Both the position numbers and the translations under genes were made by a program. A stretch of DNA of 64,000 bases. It comes from Nitrososphaerota archaeon. GTDB taxonomy: Archaea; Thermoproteota; Nitrososphaeria; Conexivisphaerales; DTJL01. The first letter of the stretch is position 1, and every line of letters begins with the position of its first letter. Shown here one piece after another: positions 12,086 through 54,069 of this stretch. The notes below the pieces were generated by a model. It was not told the DNA's origin, did not search any database, and worked only from the letters and a program-made list of their open reading frames with translations. The stretch spans positions 1 through 64,000 of the forward strand of contig JAJPJS010000016.1 of the NCBI GenBank assembly GCA_021324115.1, given 5' to 3'.

Positions 12086-12613
12086 CAACGCCACGTTCAG
12101 AAAATCCCCTAGGACTGAACACGGGTTTCCCCAACCTGTAAAGTGCCCATATATCACCTTCACGAGAATAAATCGTTCCGAATTAATAGAGGCAGGCTCT
12201 CGTAAGGCCTGATGTGTCAAGTTAACCCAATGCAGTTCGTTTTCATGATTCGGTCCAAAGAGTAATTTGAAAATCAGAAGCCTCGTCGTCATGGCCGTTA
12301 ATGATTTCCATCACCCAATCACTGCAGTGACCAGAAGCATATGTGACCAAAACATAACTCTTCATATCATTGTTCCGCTGGCGATTCCGGGTAACGCATT
12401 TGTATTGCGCTGAACAAAGAAATTTAAACCGAAGCCGCGGAAGACCTTATGCTCAAAGCAAGTCTTTCGATCATCTGTGTTCATAGCTTGAATCATATTT
12501 GATCCTCCGTTATTTCATACTCACCCGTCATATTTGTGCGGATCATACCTTGCGAAGATGATCGAAAATTCAATCTGCTTATAAACCGGCCGTAGACAGC
12601 CGATGAAGATAAT
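12086..12613. other. intergenic region with a promoter near its right end
   Basis: No gene could be supported. A minus-strand frame overlapping the 3' end of the MFS gene is a shadow. The only clear signal is a TATA-like CTTATAAAC at 12579-12587, serving the following gene. Confidence 0.5.
12579..12587 (+). promoter_or_regulatory. TATA box of the cytochrome b-Rieske fusion gene
   Basis: CTTATAAAC about 30 nt upstream of the TTG start at 12614, consistent with a near-leaderless transcript. Confidence 0.6.
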
Positions 12614-14086
12614 TTGTCGGCCCCTTCACCGATTCCAGTCCTGCCTTCGTTGGTTCTGGTTCTAGGCTTTTTGACGGTCTTTGCTCTGCATTATTACCGG
12701 CGAAGGAACTCCAGCCCATCTTCAGCATTGCCGGAAAAGGAATGGTCGACAACCACAGTTATCGCTTTCACTGGCCTTCAGAGAGCCGTTCACTGGTCAC
12801 TAGCGCTTATTCTGGGCTTGCTTGCTATCTCTGGTTATGAGGTCTTCTTTCTTCCAAATGTATCGGAGCATCCTTTCACGCTTTCCTTTCTGCTGATGCA
12901 TGAGGATGTTTCTGTGTTCCTTCTGCTGGTTCTGGTGATTCACTCTGTCATAGACACTCTGAGCGCCAGGTCTGATGGCTTTCGTAGTATGACAATGCAT
13001 CCTCGCTCCGACCTGAAGAAGATTATGGGAAGGTTAAGGGTGTCTCTTGGCTTGGACCAAGAAACTTCAAAAGAAGGCAAATACGATGTTCTCATGAGGG
13101 GTTATCACTGGACACTGCTCGCACTCTTGGTTGTACTTGGTGTTACTGGCATCTATTTCTGGGACCCGTACAATCTGATACCGGCTAACGGTCTCCCACC
13201 CTCCCTCTTCAGCACTTTTCTGAACCTTCACGTCTATTCGTCGGACCTTCTTGTTGGCCTTGCTATCGGTCACATCTACTTTTCCCTGCTTCCTGTCAAC
13301 AGGCCCCTCCTGTCGTCAATGGTAAGTGGCGAGATGGATCCCGAGTACTACAACAGACACTACGATTCGGACCTTTGGAGGCCGAATTTTGTTTTTGTTA
13401 AATCGGAGAACCTGGCCAAGTTAACATCACAACTGAGCCCGGCCGCATTTATGAAGATCACAGGATTCGAAAAGGAATCGCTGAAGTCACTCAAAAGGGT
13501 CAAGGTTCCTTTCAGCGCTGTCCAGAAGACGTGCGGTAACTTGTACGTGAAGGATAATTTAGCAAGGTGCAGGGCAAAGCATGGGGATCCATGCCTATCA
13601 AACCGCTGCCCCGTACTGGGCAGCTACGTTCCCGATTACGTTAGGATCAACAGAAGAAGATTCATCAGGAACATTGCATTTTCAGCAGCAGCGATAGGCC
13701 TTCTAGCTGCTGGCATTGGCTCCGCGGGTTTGCAAAAGCCACGATCTCCTGGCGGTGGAACCACGCCTCCGCCAACCCAACAGGTAGTGATTGCGAATTC
13801 AAACACGATGCCCCCCAACTCCTGGAAATATTTCGCATATGCGGGGGGTTACCAGGGGATACTGATCAGGCTTTCTTCAGGGCAGTTTGAAGCATACAGT
13901 TCGGTATGCACACATCAGGGATGCACGGTTCAGTACGTTCCCTCGTATGGTGAAATAGCCTGTCCATGTCATGGTGCAGTTTTCGACCCGGCGACAGGAA
14001 GCGTGGTCCAGGGGCCGGCCTTCTATCCGCTTCCTAGGATACAGGTCACCTACGACGAATCAACCGGAAACGTGTACCTTAGCTGA
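12614..14086 (+). CDS. fused di-haem cytochrome b / four-Cys segment / Rieske [2Fe-2S] protein
   Basis: A 490-residue membrane redox protein. Residues 50-235 hold helices resembling formate-dehydrogenase gamma/cytochrome b561, with candidate haem ligands His60, His110, His165, His206 and His220. Residues 307-332 contain C-x11-C-x7-C-x4-C, a possible extra metal site. Residues 346-375 are a Tat-like anchor (RRRFIRN then a hydrophobic stretch). The C-terminal domain is Rieske: CTHQGC (Cys432, His434, Cys437) and CPCH (Cys450, Cys452, His453). It probably passes quinol electrons outside the membrane. Rieske and haem parts are usually separate proteins. The start is TTG. Confidence 0.85.
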   Translation: MSAPSPIPVLPSLVLVLGFLTVFALHYYRRRNSSPSSALPEKEWSTTTVIAFTGLQRAVHWSLALILGLLAISGYEVFFLPNVSEHPFTLSFLLMHEDVSVFLLLVLVIHSVIDTLSARSDGFRSMTMHPRSDLKKIMGRLRVSLGLDQETSKEGKYDVLMRGYHWTLLALLVVLGVTGIYFWDPYNLIPANGLPPSLFSTFLNLHVYSSDLLVGLAIGHIYFSLLPVNRPLLSSMVSGEMDPEYYNRHYDSDLWRPNFVFVKSENLAKLTSQLSPAAFMKITGFEKESLKSLKRVKVPFSAVQKTCGNLYVKDNLARCRAKHGDPCLSNRCPVLGSYVPDYVRINRRRFIRNIAFSAAAIGLLAAGIGSAGLQKPRSPGGGTTPPPTQQVVIANSNTMPPNSWKYFAYAGGYQGILIRLSSGQFEAYSSVCTHQGCTVQYVPSYGEIACPCHGAVFDPATGSVVQGPAFYPLPRIQVTYDESTGNVYLS

Positions 14087-30672: not shown

Positions 30673-31299
30673 ATGGTTCATTCCGTGTCTCAACCCGACA
30701 CCATCGAAGAGCAGATTCCTCATGGTCAGAGGTACATTAGGAACTTCATCTATTATGCTGCTCTCGGCATGCCTCAGGTTGACCTGAACAGCTATAAATT
30801 TCAGGTAACAGGAAACGTGAAGAATTGCCTTTCCTTTACGTATCAGGAGCTGTTGAATCTGAAGCATACCAAAGTTGCGAAGGATTTCCACTGTGTAACG
30901 AGCTGGAGCATAAAGGGTACTGTGTGGGAAGGCATTTCCATGTCATATCTGTTCGAGTTAGCGGGTGCCCTTCCGGACACAAAATGGGTTATGTTCAAAA
31001 GTCTTGACGGTTACACGACCCCTGTTCCGTTTGAAGATGCCTGCGATCCCCAGGGCATTATCGCAACCAAGCTGAATGGAAGACCGCTCGAGCCGGAGAT
31101 GGGCTTTCCTGCGAGACCTTTCATCCCACACCTTTATGGCTGGAAGTCCGCCAAATGGCTGACCGAAGTAGAACTACTGACACAATACAAGGACGGATAC
31201 TGGGAGGAGAGGGGTTATAACGAAAGAGGAAACGTGTGGAAGGAGGAGCGGTTCAAGAGCTGGGGAAAGCATCTCAGAAGAACTGTAATCGGTCGCTGA
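30673..31299 (+). CDS. sulfite-oxidase-fold molybdopterin oxidoreductase
   Basis: A 208-residue SUOX-fold protein binding Mo-molybdopterin. The Mo-ligating cysteine lies in [19 protein letters not shown]. Other hallmarks are [13 protein letters not shown] and [26 protein letters not shown]. It lacks a signal peptide and the C-terminal dimerisation domain of full sulfite oxidases, as in YedY/archaeal single-domain forms. A GTG at 30682 lies a better distance from the TATA-like CATATTA near 30655 than the ATG at 30673. The substrate is unknown. Confidence 0.9.
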
Positions 31300-48828: not shown

Positions 48829-51800
48829 TCAGGATATCCGGCTGTAGTGGTTCGGCCTAACTTCGTATATCTGGCCCAGCTTGTAGAGGCTGTTTATCAT
48901 CTTTCTTGCATCCTCAACCTTGGCGTACTTCCCGGTCTTCATCAAGGCTTCTATGAATTTTTCCAGCGACACGGCCACCCTGTCGGGTCCCTGCAGCTCC
49001 TTGAAGATACTCATCGCCTGTTCCATAAGATTTCTTTCCGTGGACGACCTGCCTGCGAGAACTCCAGAATCAACTTTTCCACTTTTCACATCCACACCCA
49101 CTGTACCAAGCATTCTCCTTATCAGTGCAATCGCGGCAAGCGCATCTTCCTCAAGCACCCTGTCCCTCAGAAGCACCCGGGCCCTGGAGGTGGCAAGCCT
49201 GATCATGGACTCTAACTGCCTGGGGGTGACGGCTATCATGTTGTCCTGGGCACCCATCGTCCTCATTTCGAGGTAGAACTCGAGAAGTTTCGATTCCGCC
49301 TCCGCGGTCAACACCGGTTCGATCTTTTTGCAGTAAACAATGTACTTCCTTAAGAGCTCGAAGTCTATCGGCGGGGGTGTGACGAACTGCCGGGACCTGT
49401 GGGTTTGCAGGATGTGAGAGGCGAGTCTCTCATCGACCTGTCTGTCTGGCATGTCCTTCTCGATGAAGATTATATCGAATCTTGAGAGTAACGGTATTGG
49501 CAGGTTGACGTTCTCATAGATATTCTTGTAAGCGTCGTACCTTCCAAGCACAGGGTTTGCAGCAGCGACTATCGAAGTTCTTGCGTTCAGAGTAGCAACT
49601 ATCCCCCCTTTTGCTACAGATACAGTGTTGTGGAGAATGAGGTCATCTGACACAAAGTTGTGGAAAGGCTCGACGGTGATATCGTATACCCAGTCCGTCC
49701 TGAGAGGGCCGTCATTCCTTACAATTTCTATATCCTGGACTTCGACCAGTCCTAGTGAATCACCAGCTTCATCGACCCGGTCCACCAAATCGCTGCCGAG
49801 GAAACCGCCTTCTTTGTGCTCAATCGAAACTGTAATCGCCCGGAGCCTGTAAGCCTTTGGGCCTGCTTGTGGGGAAGCAAGGCATGGGGCGAGTTCTCCC
49901 CTGATGACCCGCTCAGCTGGAACGGTAGACACGCGCCCATTCCTGAATACGAACACAGGATGCTCCGGGGTTACAATAATGTCAATCCCGTTGTTGTACT
50001 TGATCCTGACGAACCTGTTGGGCGCTTCATGTCTGCTTACTCTGTCGATTTTCACAACAACTTCCTTTAAGCTGGAAAAATCATACGTGAGAACTTCCTC
50101 ACCTGACTGCAATGGAAGAATCTGGCATCTTATCCCCTCCACCACGTTCAACGGGAAGTTCCTGAATTTCTCCTCGACAAACTCACCTATGCTAATCCTC
50201 TGCCCCGACGCCAGACGTACTTTGGTCGACGGATGGTACGACTGTTGTTCCATCACTTCGTGCAAGACACTTCTGTCCTCAGGCCTCATCTTATCAAATT
50301 CATCTATGCAGGCTATTCCCAGGTCAGCCAGAACAACAGCTCCGGCTTCAAGCATCATTAGACCGGATTTGTCCTTGACCACTGCAGCAGTGTTATGAAC
50401 AAGGAAGCCTTCAGCCATGAAAGAGTGTCCACCCTCGATGGTCAGGTCGTAAACCGTCGACCCCTCCTCCTCTGTTACAGACTCAATTTCATCAACGATA
50501 AAGTTGGGACCAACCATCACATACTCTTGCATGTCTCTGTTCATGCCGGATTCAATTAGCCGAGTGAGCTTCTCTCTCTTTTTCGGGCTGCTGAACCCTA
50601 TTTTTTCAGCGAAGGTCGAAAGAGACGTCCTGTCCCGGATTCGCACCTTCGGCTTGGCATTTTCCTCAGAACTATCGGAGGCGGCGCGGAGTTCTGAAAC
50701 AATGCCGAATCTCTGCAGTGCGAGGATCAACTGGCGGGCGAATGTTCTGTTGGGGGCGCTGTATTCTATACCCCCACCAAAGGAGATTTCAGCTCCGCCA
50801 TCATACAGACCGCGGAGAAAGCTTCCAAGCTGATGCTCGGGGGCTGATACGATGCCCCCGTCCAGTTCCAGTTCATCGTTGGACTGTTTCCCGCCAGTTA
50901 TCACAGACAGTAACCTTTTCGCCAATGAACCGGGAATGTCAATCAAAAACTCTCTAGGGCGGGTCAGTTTTGTCCCTGGCTCTAATCCGAAAGATTCCTT
51001 GAACATCAGCCTGTATCTTCCGCATTCCTCTGCATCCTTTGTTCGTATCAAGAAACGTTCGTCCGAAGCCTCAAGCCTCTCTTTTTCGAACCAGGAATTG
51101 CAGACCAGACCAGATAGGTAGAGCAGAGAATCCGGTTCAGAAGGTACTTCAAACACTCGCCGGGTTTTGCCTGTATTGTACCGTACCTTTTTCACACAAG
51201 CCCATGGCTCGGCAAAGTCTTCCAACCCACACCCCTTCCAGGCTGACTTCAACTCCTTGTATGACATTTTCCGTTTCCTGTGCCCAAAAACAGCAGTTGC
51301 ATCATCATTGACAAGCGGGTTCTTCTCCGCACCTCTTAGGGCAGGCTTTAGAATCCTGAGCAGCTCCACCTGCTTCTTCAATTCCACTTCATCCTCATCT
51401 CTGAAGAACCTTTCAAGACTGAAAGGAAGTTCTGCTCCAGGTATGTAACGTGCAATCAAGGGACGGTCGCCTGGTCGAATTTCGCTCCCCCTCTTCCAGT
51501 AGAGGCAACCGTCGGCTGGACGATAAAACCCGAGTTTTGTTTCGGGGGTAATAGCCAACTCCCTGCCGAGCCTGGTTCTAACTCTCACCAGGCGTTCGGC
51601 CTGGAGGCGGTAGTACTGCTTCGCATGCCCATACACAAGGGCTTCAGGCTTCAGCAGGCCGGTCGAGACTAGCCCAGCGTTTTCGCCGACCAGTATTTGC
51701 ACTTCTTTAAGGGCAGGGCTCACGACTTCGGAGGTCTGGGGGTGCAAAGCTACCACTTCCCCTCCCTCCAGCCTTTTCTCATCATTTGCAAGATTGCGCT

Positions 51801-54069
51801 CGACAAGGTCGCCTATCGTACGCAACCCCGTAGGGGTAACAACAAAGGATTCTGGAGATACGCAGAGCCCCGCGCTCGTGCTTCCCCTGCCGCTTGTGTA
51901 GAGGCCCCTCGGTGCAAGCCTCGAAATATATTTCAGGAGTTCACTCTTGCCCGTGTTGTGAACAACTATACCGTTCGCGACAAATCTATGACCCTCGGGT
52001 ACCTCGATATCATAAACATCGGCCCTTTCCCCTCTTTTGACGATTCTCACCACTCTTTCGAATCGGCGGCGAGGTTCATTCCTATCGTCCCAAAATCGAG
52101 AAATGAACTTCAAAAACCTTGATCTCTTTGATTCAGACACAAAACCTATCCTTCTCCGGAATCTGTCCAGGTTGCGTGTACCGCCGATTACGAGTTCATC
52201 AGCATTTACATTTGAGGAAATGCCGAATCTGAGAAGCAGTATCTGAACGTCTCTTAGAAGCTCGATGTTGCCAATCCTGAGTACAACACCCTTTTCCTCA
52301 ATGTCGACGTCGGCGATCGCTTCGAACAGAAATCTCAGAAATCGTGCAACAACCTTGTTTCCTGATGCAAGTATCTCATCTGGAACCCTTCTTTCAAGCA
52401 AAAATCGAAAGGCCACCTCAACGATATCACTCCTGACCTCGACAGTAATCTTTGTGTATGGATGACCTTCAACTCGTTTTACCAGTACCTCTCCTTTTGA
52501 AAGTTTGAACAGCCTCTTCATGTTAGAGGTCAGTTTTCGAAGCACATCTTCAGAACCTCCCGGCACGATGATCTCTAGTCTGTCGGGTTTCTCGAGCGTT
52601 CCGTTCCCAATAACGTAACCGGCAACACCGGCTAAGGCTGGCGAGTAGAATTCGGGCAGAGCGTGCCCATGTTGCATAGATTTACCTGTGCCACAAGCGA
52701 ATCCTGTCGGCACCAACTCTTCGATGCTGCTGGGAATCCTTGTTACGACTCTCACAAGGTCGCCCACCTGCACCCTGTCAAGCCTCTTCCAGCTGGTTCT
52801 TGTGCGGTGACGGAGTTTAGTTGCAACCAGCACGGGATGGTTGTATGTTCCCTTGATGCTCCTGCCGGATTCCGTTATGATCTCCATCACCGGCTGATTT
52901 CTGTATAAGTGGAATGTCGAGGCCCTGGCATTTTCCCCTCTGCTTTCCCCGGTCAACACAGGCAGCTCAATTTTTTGAAGGTGTGAATTTCCGATTTTGC
53001 CTATCTTCACGATTGCCCCGTTTCCCAGTGTCACCCTTTCATCAAACACAAGGCAACCCGGGTCTCCCACCAGAAGCATATTTTCATCCCCTCTAATCAC
53101 CGTCCCGTCAGGGAGCACCCGCTGCGGTGCGCCGGCGGCAAGCAGAAGGGCGGCTTCCTTCTCGGGCTCCATGCCGAAAATGGAAGGTGAAATAGATCTG
53201 ATCAGGTCATCATAACCACGGGGTGATTCGGCTATCCGCCTTATCGCGGCTTCGTCCTCTGGCGTGATCTGGATCTGCTCGAGCTCCTTTCCCCTGACAT
53301 CGACGTAGTTTGCGTCGAGGCTGGTCCTGAATGTGGTCTGCCTGCCGGCGCCGAACCCGCTTTCCGGTTCCGCCCTCACTATGCCTGTTATAATTATCCT
53401 GTCCCCGGGCCTGGCCTTGTTCACCAGGTCGCCAAGAAGTTCAGCATCTATGGATTGAGGTAGCTGCCCGGGCGGCAGCTCTTCTGGCAGCTCCTGAAGT
53501 CTCAACACCTGATAATCCGTGAACCTGCTGAGCTTTGTATCCAGCTTGAATTCTTTGGTTTCGGTGCAATCCGCGCATCGGTCTGGCTTCTTCAGGCTGT
53601 TCGTCTCCTGTTCGATAAAGGTTACATGTTCCTTAGGGCATATGAAAGCGGCAATCAGGGCCCTGGGCTTTATTTCTGACGTCCTGACAACCATACCGTT
53701 TATCGATACGAGCTTGTCCAGATGCTTTGCGGACACACCTCTGAGGGGTAGTTTGTCCGTAACACCTGCAACCCGTACCCTCAGTTCCCTTTCGATACTC
53801 TCGGCATATGACACATTTTCCGTCCGAACCACCTGCAGCGCAGCATCCTTGAACAGCTTGAGAACCCTGTCCGGATTTTCCCTGAGTTCTGTTGCAAGCG
53901 GCTCATCGAAGGAAAGAAGGTCTTCGTAATCGACCACCACAGAGGTTTGTCCGTCCGCTATCATCCTGTCTATCCTTGAGATGTACTTGTATGTGCCGTC
54001 GGGGGACTTGAAGCTTCGCAGAAACAGGTCGAACTGCTCTGTAATGGAACCAGCAGACTGACCGGCCAA
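48829..54069 (-). CDS. mcm: MCM replicative helicase interrupted by three inteins
   Basis: A 1746-residue precursor; removing the inteins leaves about 683 residues, the normal MCM length. The N-terminal domain (1-270) has an OB fold and zinc ligands Cys144, Cys165, Cys168 with His148. The AAA+ core includes LLVGDPG/TGKSELL (Walker A, split by intein 1), YTSGRGSTSAGL/TAAVVKD (split by intein 2), IACIDEFDKM (Walker B), and MEQQ/TVSVAKGGIVATLNART (split by intein 3, sensor region). A C-terminal winged helix ends the protein. It follows gins with a 7-bp gap. The precursor should be inactive until splicing. Confidence 0.96.
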   Translation of the reverse strand: MAGQSAGSITEQFDLFLRSFKSPDGTYKYISRIDRMIADGQTSVVVDYEDLLSFDEPLATELRENPDRVLKLFKDAALQVVRTENVSYAESIERELRVRVAGVTDKLPLRGVSAKHLDKLVSINGMVVRTSEIKPRALIAAFICPKEHVTFIEQETNSLKKPDRCADCTETKEFKLDTKLSRFTDYQVLRLQELPEELPPGQLPQSIDAELLGDLVNKARPGDRIIITGIVRAEPESGFGAGRQTTFRTSLDANYVDVRGKELEQIQITPEDEAAIRRIAESPRGYDDLIRSISPSIFGMEPEKEAALLLAAGAPQRVLPDGTVIRGDENMLLVGDPGCLVFDERVTLGNGAIVKIGKIGNSHLQKIELPVLTGESRGENARASTFHLYRNQPVMEIITESGRSIKGTYNHPVLVATKLRHRTRTSWKRLDRVQVGDLVRVVTRIPSSIEELVPTGFACGTGKSMQHGHALPEFYSPALAGVAGYVIGNGTLEKPDRLEIIVPGGSEDVLRKLTSNMKRLFKLSKGEVLVKRVEGHPYTKITVEVRSDIVEVAFRFLLERRVPDEILASGNKVVARFLRFLFEAIADVDIEEKGVVLRIGNIELLRDVQILLLRFGISSNVNADELVIGGTRNLDRFRRRIGFVSESKRSRFLKFISRFWDDRNEPRRRFERVVRIVKRGERADVYDIEVPEGHRFVANGIVVHNTGKSELLKYISRLAPRGLYTSGRGSTSAGLCVSPESFVVTPTGLRTIGDLVERNLANDEKRLEGGEVVALHPQTSEVVSPALKEVQILVGENAGLVSTGLLKPEALVYGHAKQYYRLQAERLVRVRTRLGRELAITPETKLGFYRPADGCLYWKRGSEIRPGDRPLIARYIPGAELPFSLERFFRDEDEVELKKQVELLRILKPALRGAEKNPLVNDDATAVFGHRKRKMSYKELKSAWKGCGLEDFAEPWACVKKVRYNTGKTRRVFEVPSEPDSLLYLSGLVCNSWFEKERLEASDERFLIRTKDAEECGRYRLMFKESFGLEPGTKLTRPREFLIDIPGSLAKRLLSVITGGKQSNDELELDGGIVSAPEHQLGSFLRGLYDGGAEISFGGGIEYSAPNRTFARQLILALQRFGIVSELRAASDSSEENAKPKVRIRDRTSLSTFAEKIGFSSPKKREKLTRLIESGMNRDMQEYVMVGPNFIVDEIESVTEEEGSTVYDLTIEGGHSFMAEGFLVHNTAAVVKDKSGLMMLEAGAVVLADLGIACIDEFDKMRPEDRSVLHEVMEQQSYHPSTKVRLASGQRISIGEFVEEKFRNFPLNVVEGIRCQILPLQSGEEVLTYDFSSLKEVVVKIDRVSRHEAPNRFVRIKYNNGIDIIVTPEHPVFVFRNGRVSTVPAERVIRGELAPCLASPQAGPKAYRLRAITVSIEHKEGGFLGSDLVDRVDEAGDSLGLVEVQDIEIVRNDGPLRTDWVYDITVEPFHNFVSDDLILHNTVSVAKGGIVATLNARTSIVAAANPVLGRYDAYKNIYENVNLPIPLLSRFDIIFIEKDMPDRQVDERLASHILQTHRSRQFVTPPPIDFELLRKYIVYCKKIEPVLTAEAESKLLEFYLEMRTMGAQDNMIAVTPRQLESMIRLATSRARVLLRDRVLEEDALAAIALIRRMLGTVGVDVKSGKVDSGVLAGRSSTERNLMEQAMSIFKELQGPDRVAVSLEKFIEALMKTGKYAKVEDARKMINSLYKLGQIYEVRPNHYSRIS
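49627..50241 (-). other. intein 3 of MCM (MEQQ/TVSVAK site), mini-intein with Ser1
   Basis: Residues 1277-1481, 205 residues. It opens SYHPSTKVRLASGQRISIGE (Ser1 instead of Cys), has block B IDIIVTPEHPVFVF, and ends WVYDITVEPFHNFVSDDLILHN with Thr next. The space between blocks B and F is too small for an endonuclease, so it is a natural mini-intein. Confidence 0.92.
50392..51864 (-). other. intein 2 of MCM (SAGL/TAAVV site), block B His replaced
   Basis: Residues 736-1226, 491 residues. It opens CVSPESFVVTPTGLRTIGDL and ends SFMAEGFLVHN, before Thr. In block B the usual T-x-x-H is TPET, so the His is gone. Endonuclease motifs are weak (YLSGLVCNSWFE, FLRGLYDGGAEI). Splicing is still expected because Cys1, the terminal His-Asn and the +1 Thr are present. 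Confidence 0.92.
51955..53055 (-). other. intein 1 of MCM (Walker A site), with decayed endonuclease
   Basis: Residues 339-705 of the precursor, 367 residues. It opens CLVFDERVTLGNG (Cys1), carries GTYNHPVLVA in block B, and closes VYDIEVPEGHRFVANGIVVHN, followed by Thr. Two LAGLIDADG-like segments (LAGVAGYVIGNGTLE and FLFEAIADVDIEE) are degenerate, so the homing endonuclease is probably inactive. It sits between GDPG and TGKS of the P-loop. Confidence 0.93.

Follow-up and report, generated by a model that had tools for sequence, protein, structure and literature searches.

A single gene in the window (the whole stretch of 64,000 nucleotides of archaeal DNA that was analysed) encodes one polypeptide in which an FdnI-type cytochrome b module is joined to a Rieske domain. 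Rieske proteins and their haem-b partners are usually separate subunits. The fusion is genuine and rare, and it seems to be new to the open-licence literature that was searched. With a probability of roughly 60%, we consider the protein to be a single-chain, quinone-linked membrane electron-transfer adapter that carries a tethered Rieske head on the outer face. The domains, the conserved ligands, a topology that fits the positive-inside rule and the occurrence of the fusion in a second lineage can all be read from the sequence itself. The gene and its parts are as follows.

12614..14086, + strand: whole open reading frame (490 aa, TTG start) for a cytochrome b561/FdnI-type module, an insert and a Rieske domain; the fusion is also present in four other genomes
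12578..12585 (about), + strand: TATA-like CTTATAAA, 29-36 nt 5' of the TTG, recognised by sequence and suggestive only
12638..12706, + strand: extra N-terminal transmembrane helix, residues 9-31 (AF2 helix 9-32; alignments), common to relatives
12767..13330, + strand: cytochrome b561 (Ni_hydr_CYTB) four-helix module, residues 52-239 (Pfam; FdnI alignment; 41-sequence table; 1kqf_C fold match)
13370..13639, + strand: insert, residues 253-342, coding, predicted to be cytoplasmic and missing in the four other fused proteins
13532..13609, + strand: four-cysteine segment C307-x11-C319-x7-C327-x4-C332, with H323 inside; AF2 confidence mostly <50
13640..13726, + strand: twin-arginine-like RINRRRFIRN and a single anchor helix, residues 343-371 (AF2 helix 346-370); RR-x-F is conserved in the fused proteins
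13727..13783, + strand: flexible Gly/Pro/Thr-rich tether, residues 372-390 (AF2 pLDDT <50 at 367-386)
13784..14083, + strand: Rieske [2Fe-2S] domain, residues 391-490 (Pfam, alignment, fold match), containing CPCHGAVFD

The frame has zero internal stops, and the fusion gene is present as a single copy in its own genome. A Pfam search of the 490-aa protein returned Ni_hydr_CYTB (PF01292) at residues 52-239 (1.2e-19; 71.3 bits against a curated cut-off of 30.1) and a Rieske match at residues 391-474 (2.1e-12), and nothing beyond these two families. The open reading frame and the Pfam matches thus bear out the proposal, made in the initial annotation, that one TTG-initiated gene encodes both an FdhI-type cytochrome b and a Rieske domain. 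Translation from the TTG is plausible because CTTATAAA lies upstream and because the N-terminal helix is kept in relatives. An AF2 model of the protein has a mean pLDDT of 77, with the Cys segment and the tether poorly predicted, and it resembles FdnI (1kqf_C; TMt 0.72) and Rieske heads such as PetC3 (5cxm; TMt 0.88). Two other genes of the window are recorded here as separate observations: an Oxidored_molyb protein of 208 aa (30673-31299), and a 1746-aa MCM-like open reading frame (48829-54069) that by eye seems to be interrupted by inteins.

One of the closest known systems is FdnI (cytochrome b556) of E. coli formate dehydrogenase-N, which belongs to PF01292 and has the four-helix fold and all four haem ligand positions in common with the window protein. 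In the alignment, the FdnI ligands H18, H57, H155 and H169 correspond to H60, H96, H206 and H220 of the window protein, and each of the 41 cytochrome b sequences aligned has His at all four positions. We infer from the conserved ligands that the module carries haem b. The ligand list in the initial annotation was therefore right for H60, H206 and H220, but it omitted H96 and included H110 and H165, which are absent from FdnI. FdnI connects quinone with an iron-sulfur module on the outer side, as is proposed for the window module. However, it is a separate subunit without a Rieske domain, the extra N-terminal helix or the H110/H165 pair, all of which the window protein has in one chain.

The H110/H165 pair has a distribution of its own. 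Both positions are His in 14 of the 41 sequences, namely the five fused proteins and nine proteins from Nitrososphaeria, and both aligned columns are non-His in the other 27. Because the 14 carriers are related, the pair may represent one evolutionary event. Transmembrane helices 1-2 and 3-4 look like two copies of one repeat (hhalign E 7e-10). The H110/H165 pair would then be the counterpart of H60/H220, and this equivalence makes a third haem a reasonable idea. Thus, H110/H165 may be a candidate site for a third haem b on the cytoplasmic side. The highest-scoring matches to the window module, at about 36-39% identity, are standalone Gagatemarchaeum-like cytochromes b (L038, L039), which have the same six His but no Rieske domain. 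Genes for a Tat-type [2Fe-2S] protein, a Mo hydroxylase and a flavoprotein lie upstream of one of these (L038, 120-4356), and a MobA-like gene follows it. Next to another standalone cytochrome b, a DUF1775 gene is located directly 3' (L045, 6800-7435).

In the Rieske domain, the cluster ligands are C432, H434, C450 and H453 (CxH...CxxH), with C437 and C452 as the disulfide pair, and this set is kept in all five fused proteins. Three of the four ligands named earlier (C432, H434 and H453) stand, whereas C452 pairs with C437 and the fourth ligand is C450. Occupancy by a [2Fe-2S] cluster is probable, given these residues. The window domain has the motif GAVF and the other fused proteins have GAEF, with Ala and Phe in place of Ser and Tyr, and the genome's other Rieske protein has GSTY. 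Ser and Tyr at these positions raise the potential of a Rieske cluster, and their absence lowers it. In some other Rieske proteins from Nitrososphaeria (L006, L007, L012 and similar), the chain starts with several membrane helices of unknown family, which are followed by an RR-type anchor.

The charge distribution of the loops provides the orientation. Lys and Arg number 9 in loop 117-159 and 21 in loop 227-349, and there are none in loops 80-90 and 184-202. By the positive-inside rule, the two charged loops would be inside and the Rieske head outside, and the four-Cys insert is predicted to be cytoplasmic. The RRRFIRN stretch that was initially described as a Tat-like anchor is indeed present, but it comes before the anchor helix in the chain and is predicted to be on the cytoplasmic face.

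In the adapter that we propose, the FdnI-type cytochrome b would hold two or more haems b, span the membrane and trade electrons with the quinone pool. The Rieske [2Fe-2S] head, held at the outer face by the C-terminal anchor helix and the flexible tether, would swing from the outer haem (H96/H206) to a partner that is either soluble or at the surface, and back. The most likely route for electrons would start with a donor outside the cytoplasm that reduces the Rieske head, and would then lead through the outer haem to the inner haem (H60/H220) and on to quinone. This direction is preferred because the missing Ser/Tyr pair should lower the Rieske potential, although the flow may instead run from quinol to an acceptor. 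The four-Cys insert would share the cytoplasmic side with a third haem, should H110/H165 bind one there. A point against the adapter is that no obvious redox partner gene lies beside the fusion gene, which is preceded by an MFS transporter and followed by small proteins.

The role of an adapter to the quinone pool is supported by the fact that the same cytochrome b module occurs with varied outer redox partners in Thermoproteota. In four such proteins (L103, L106, L108, L111), the PF01292 module is followed by an RR-type anchor (read in L103) and then an outer redox domain, as in the window protein. Unlike the window protein, these four have CARDB and FMN-binding (FMN_bind) domains instead of a Rieske domain, and they lack the H110/H165 pair. 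A further protein (L100) has a cytochrome b561 fused to a molybdopterin domain (Oxidored_molyb), and the redox genes next to the standalone cytochrome b of L038 represent a third kind of partner.

The initial annotation had suggested that the protein might be a minimal quinol-oxidising unit. In the sense of a bc1 complex, an outer site would oxidise quinol and split its two electrons, with one passing to the Rieske centre and on to an outer acceptor and the other crossing the membrane through the haems b. The general arrangement is consistent with this possibility, given that in bc1 and b6f complexes, too, the outer Rieske head is anchored in the membrane by a tether and sits next to a cytochrome b with two haems. 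The Rieske head of the window protein would also be near a haem b on the outer face and on a mobile tether as in bc1, and the genome is of an aerobic type with two COX1 genes. However, the window protein is a single chain, its cytochrome b falls in PF01292 with no match to PF00033 or PF13631, and neither it nor the other fused proteins contain a PEWY-type Qo motif (P[EDP]W[YFW]). Furthermore, the fused Rieske domains are without the Ser/Tyr pair, and the same genome has a separate, conventional locus that encodes a cytochrome b (PF13631/PF00033, with a PPWF motif), a Ser/Tyr-type Rieske protein and an EB_dh-type protein. These differences argue against a bc1-like unit, which we consider unlikely.

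It is also conceivable that the protein forms a trans-membrane wire from a cytoplasmic four-Cys metal site through three haems b to the Rieske head outside, in which case quinone would not be its main partner. As initially reported, C307, C319, C327 and C332 lie outside both known modules. They are the sole Cys residues outside the Rieske domain and fall within 26 residues on the predicted cytoplasmic side, which is also the side predicted for the H110/H165 pair; by a rough hand estimate, four positions drawn at random would cluster this tightly with a chance of about 5e-4. Nevertheless, the insert with the four Cys is missing from all four of the other fused proteins, so the fusion itself does not depend on it, and it has so far been seen in this one genome only. 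AF2 gives no confident fold for the segment, and we know of no FeS motif with this spacing. We therefore regard the wire as improbable.

A search with the four-Cys segment alone yielded no homologue in 300 genomes of the class, where one weak match was full of stops, and none in the PDB. The segment is thus an orphan insert, and with no homologues in which to follow conservation, an FeS or zinc site there is only a possibility. A complete one-chain wire, comprising a mobile outer Rieske head, three haems b (the third on H110/H165) and a new, lineage-specific cytoplasmic four-Cys metal site, is distinctly improbable.

The remaining alternative, a sequencing or assembly fusion of two genes, might be entertained for an assembly of 27 contigs that is 95% complete, but it is exceedingly improbable, and indeed already contradicted, because the frame is continuous and its codon usage is coding-like in all three parts (cytochrome b, insert and Rieske), and because four other genomes have the same fusion as one open frame; three of these genomes are single-contig chromosomes. 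Taken alone, the 36-codon Cys stretch gives a weak coding signal (-0.135 bits/codon in frame versus -0.093 in the best other frame). The four other genomes emerged from a phylum-level search of 398 genomes and all belong to genus g106, which is presumably Metallosphaera. In a family search, four of the six g106 genomes had the fusion, whereas the family's other 25 genomes all lacked it, and an order search of 147 genomes returned the same four with no further full-length case. The five fused proteins share one domain order, keep all six His and every Rieske ligand, and align end to end with one large gap that corresponds to window residues ~253-342. Short pilin-like and secretion-ATPase-like open reading frames, judged by sequence appearance only, lie near the g106 fusion gene (L072, 8105-11579; L075, 120-3528).

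Other samples returned no additional fusion. It was found in none of 400 genomes of the class except the window's own, nor in the remainder of that genome's order or in 46 genomes of the Gagatemarchaeum family, and in these class, order and Gagatemarchaeum samples the cytochrome b and Rieske halves outside the fused cases are separate genes. All of these searches are overlapping samples from within the window's own phylum, about 800 genomes in total. A contig scan with one of the alignments gave only cytochrome b relatives that fitted its two patterns and missed the g106 fusions, so it sets no bound on distribution, and a plasmid search gave two Rieske matches only. The domain-architecture search that had been recommended at the outset thus reveals an architecture that is rare rather than common among the sampled genomes, and no description of it was found in the open-licence literature searched.

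The fusion may have had one origin or two. The window protein falls among Nitrososphaeria rather than with g106 when the cytochrome b part is used for the tree, and a topology in which the fused proteins are held together has a p-AU of 0.03. In the Rieske tree, the grouping of the fused proteins is not rejected (p-AU 0.26), and the g106 proteins are nearest by path. Two separate fusion events would explain the cytochrome b tree, as would a long-branch artefact in it.

The cytochromes b that carry the H110/H165 pair can be set apart as a subfamily, which may bind a third haem. A one-chain version of a Rieske-haem b pair would be a compact system for studying electron transfer between the two cofactors. 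Moreover, the fused protein, apparently present in Metallosphaera, would be an unassigned part of acidophilic archaeal electron transport.
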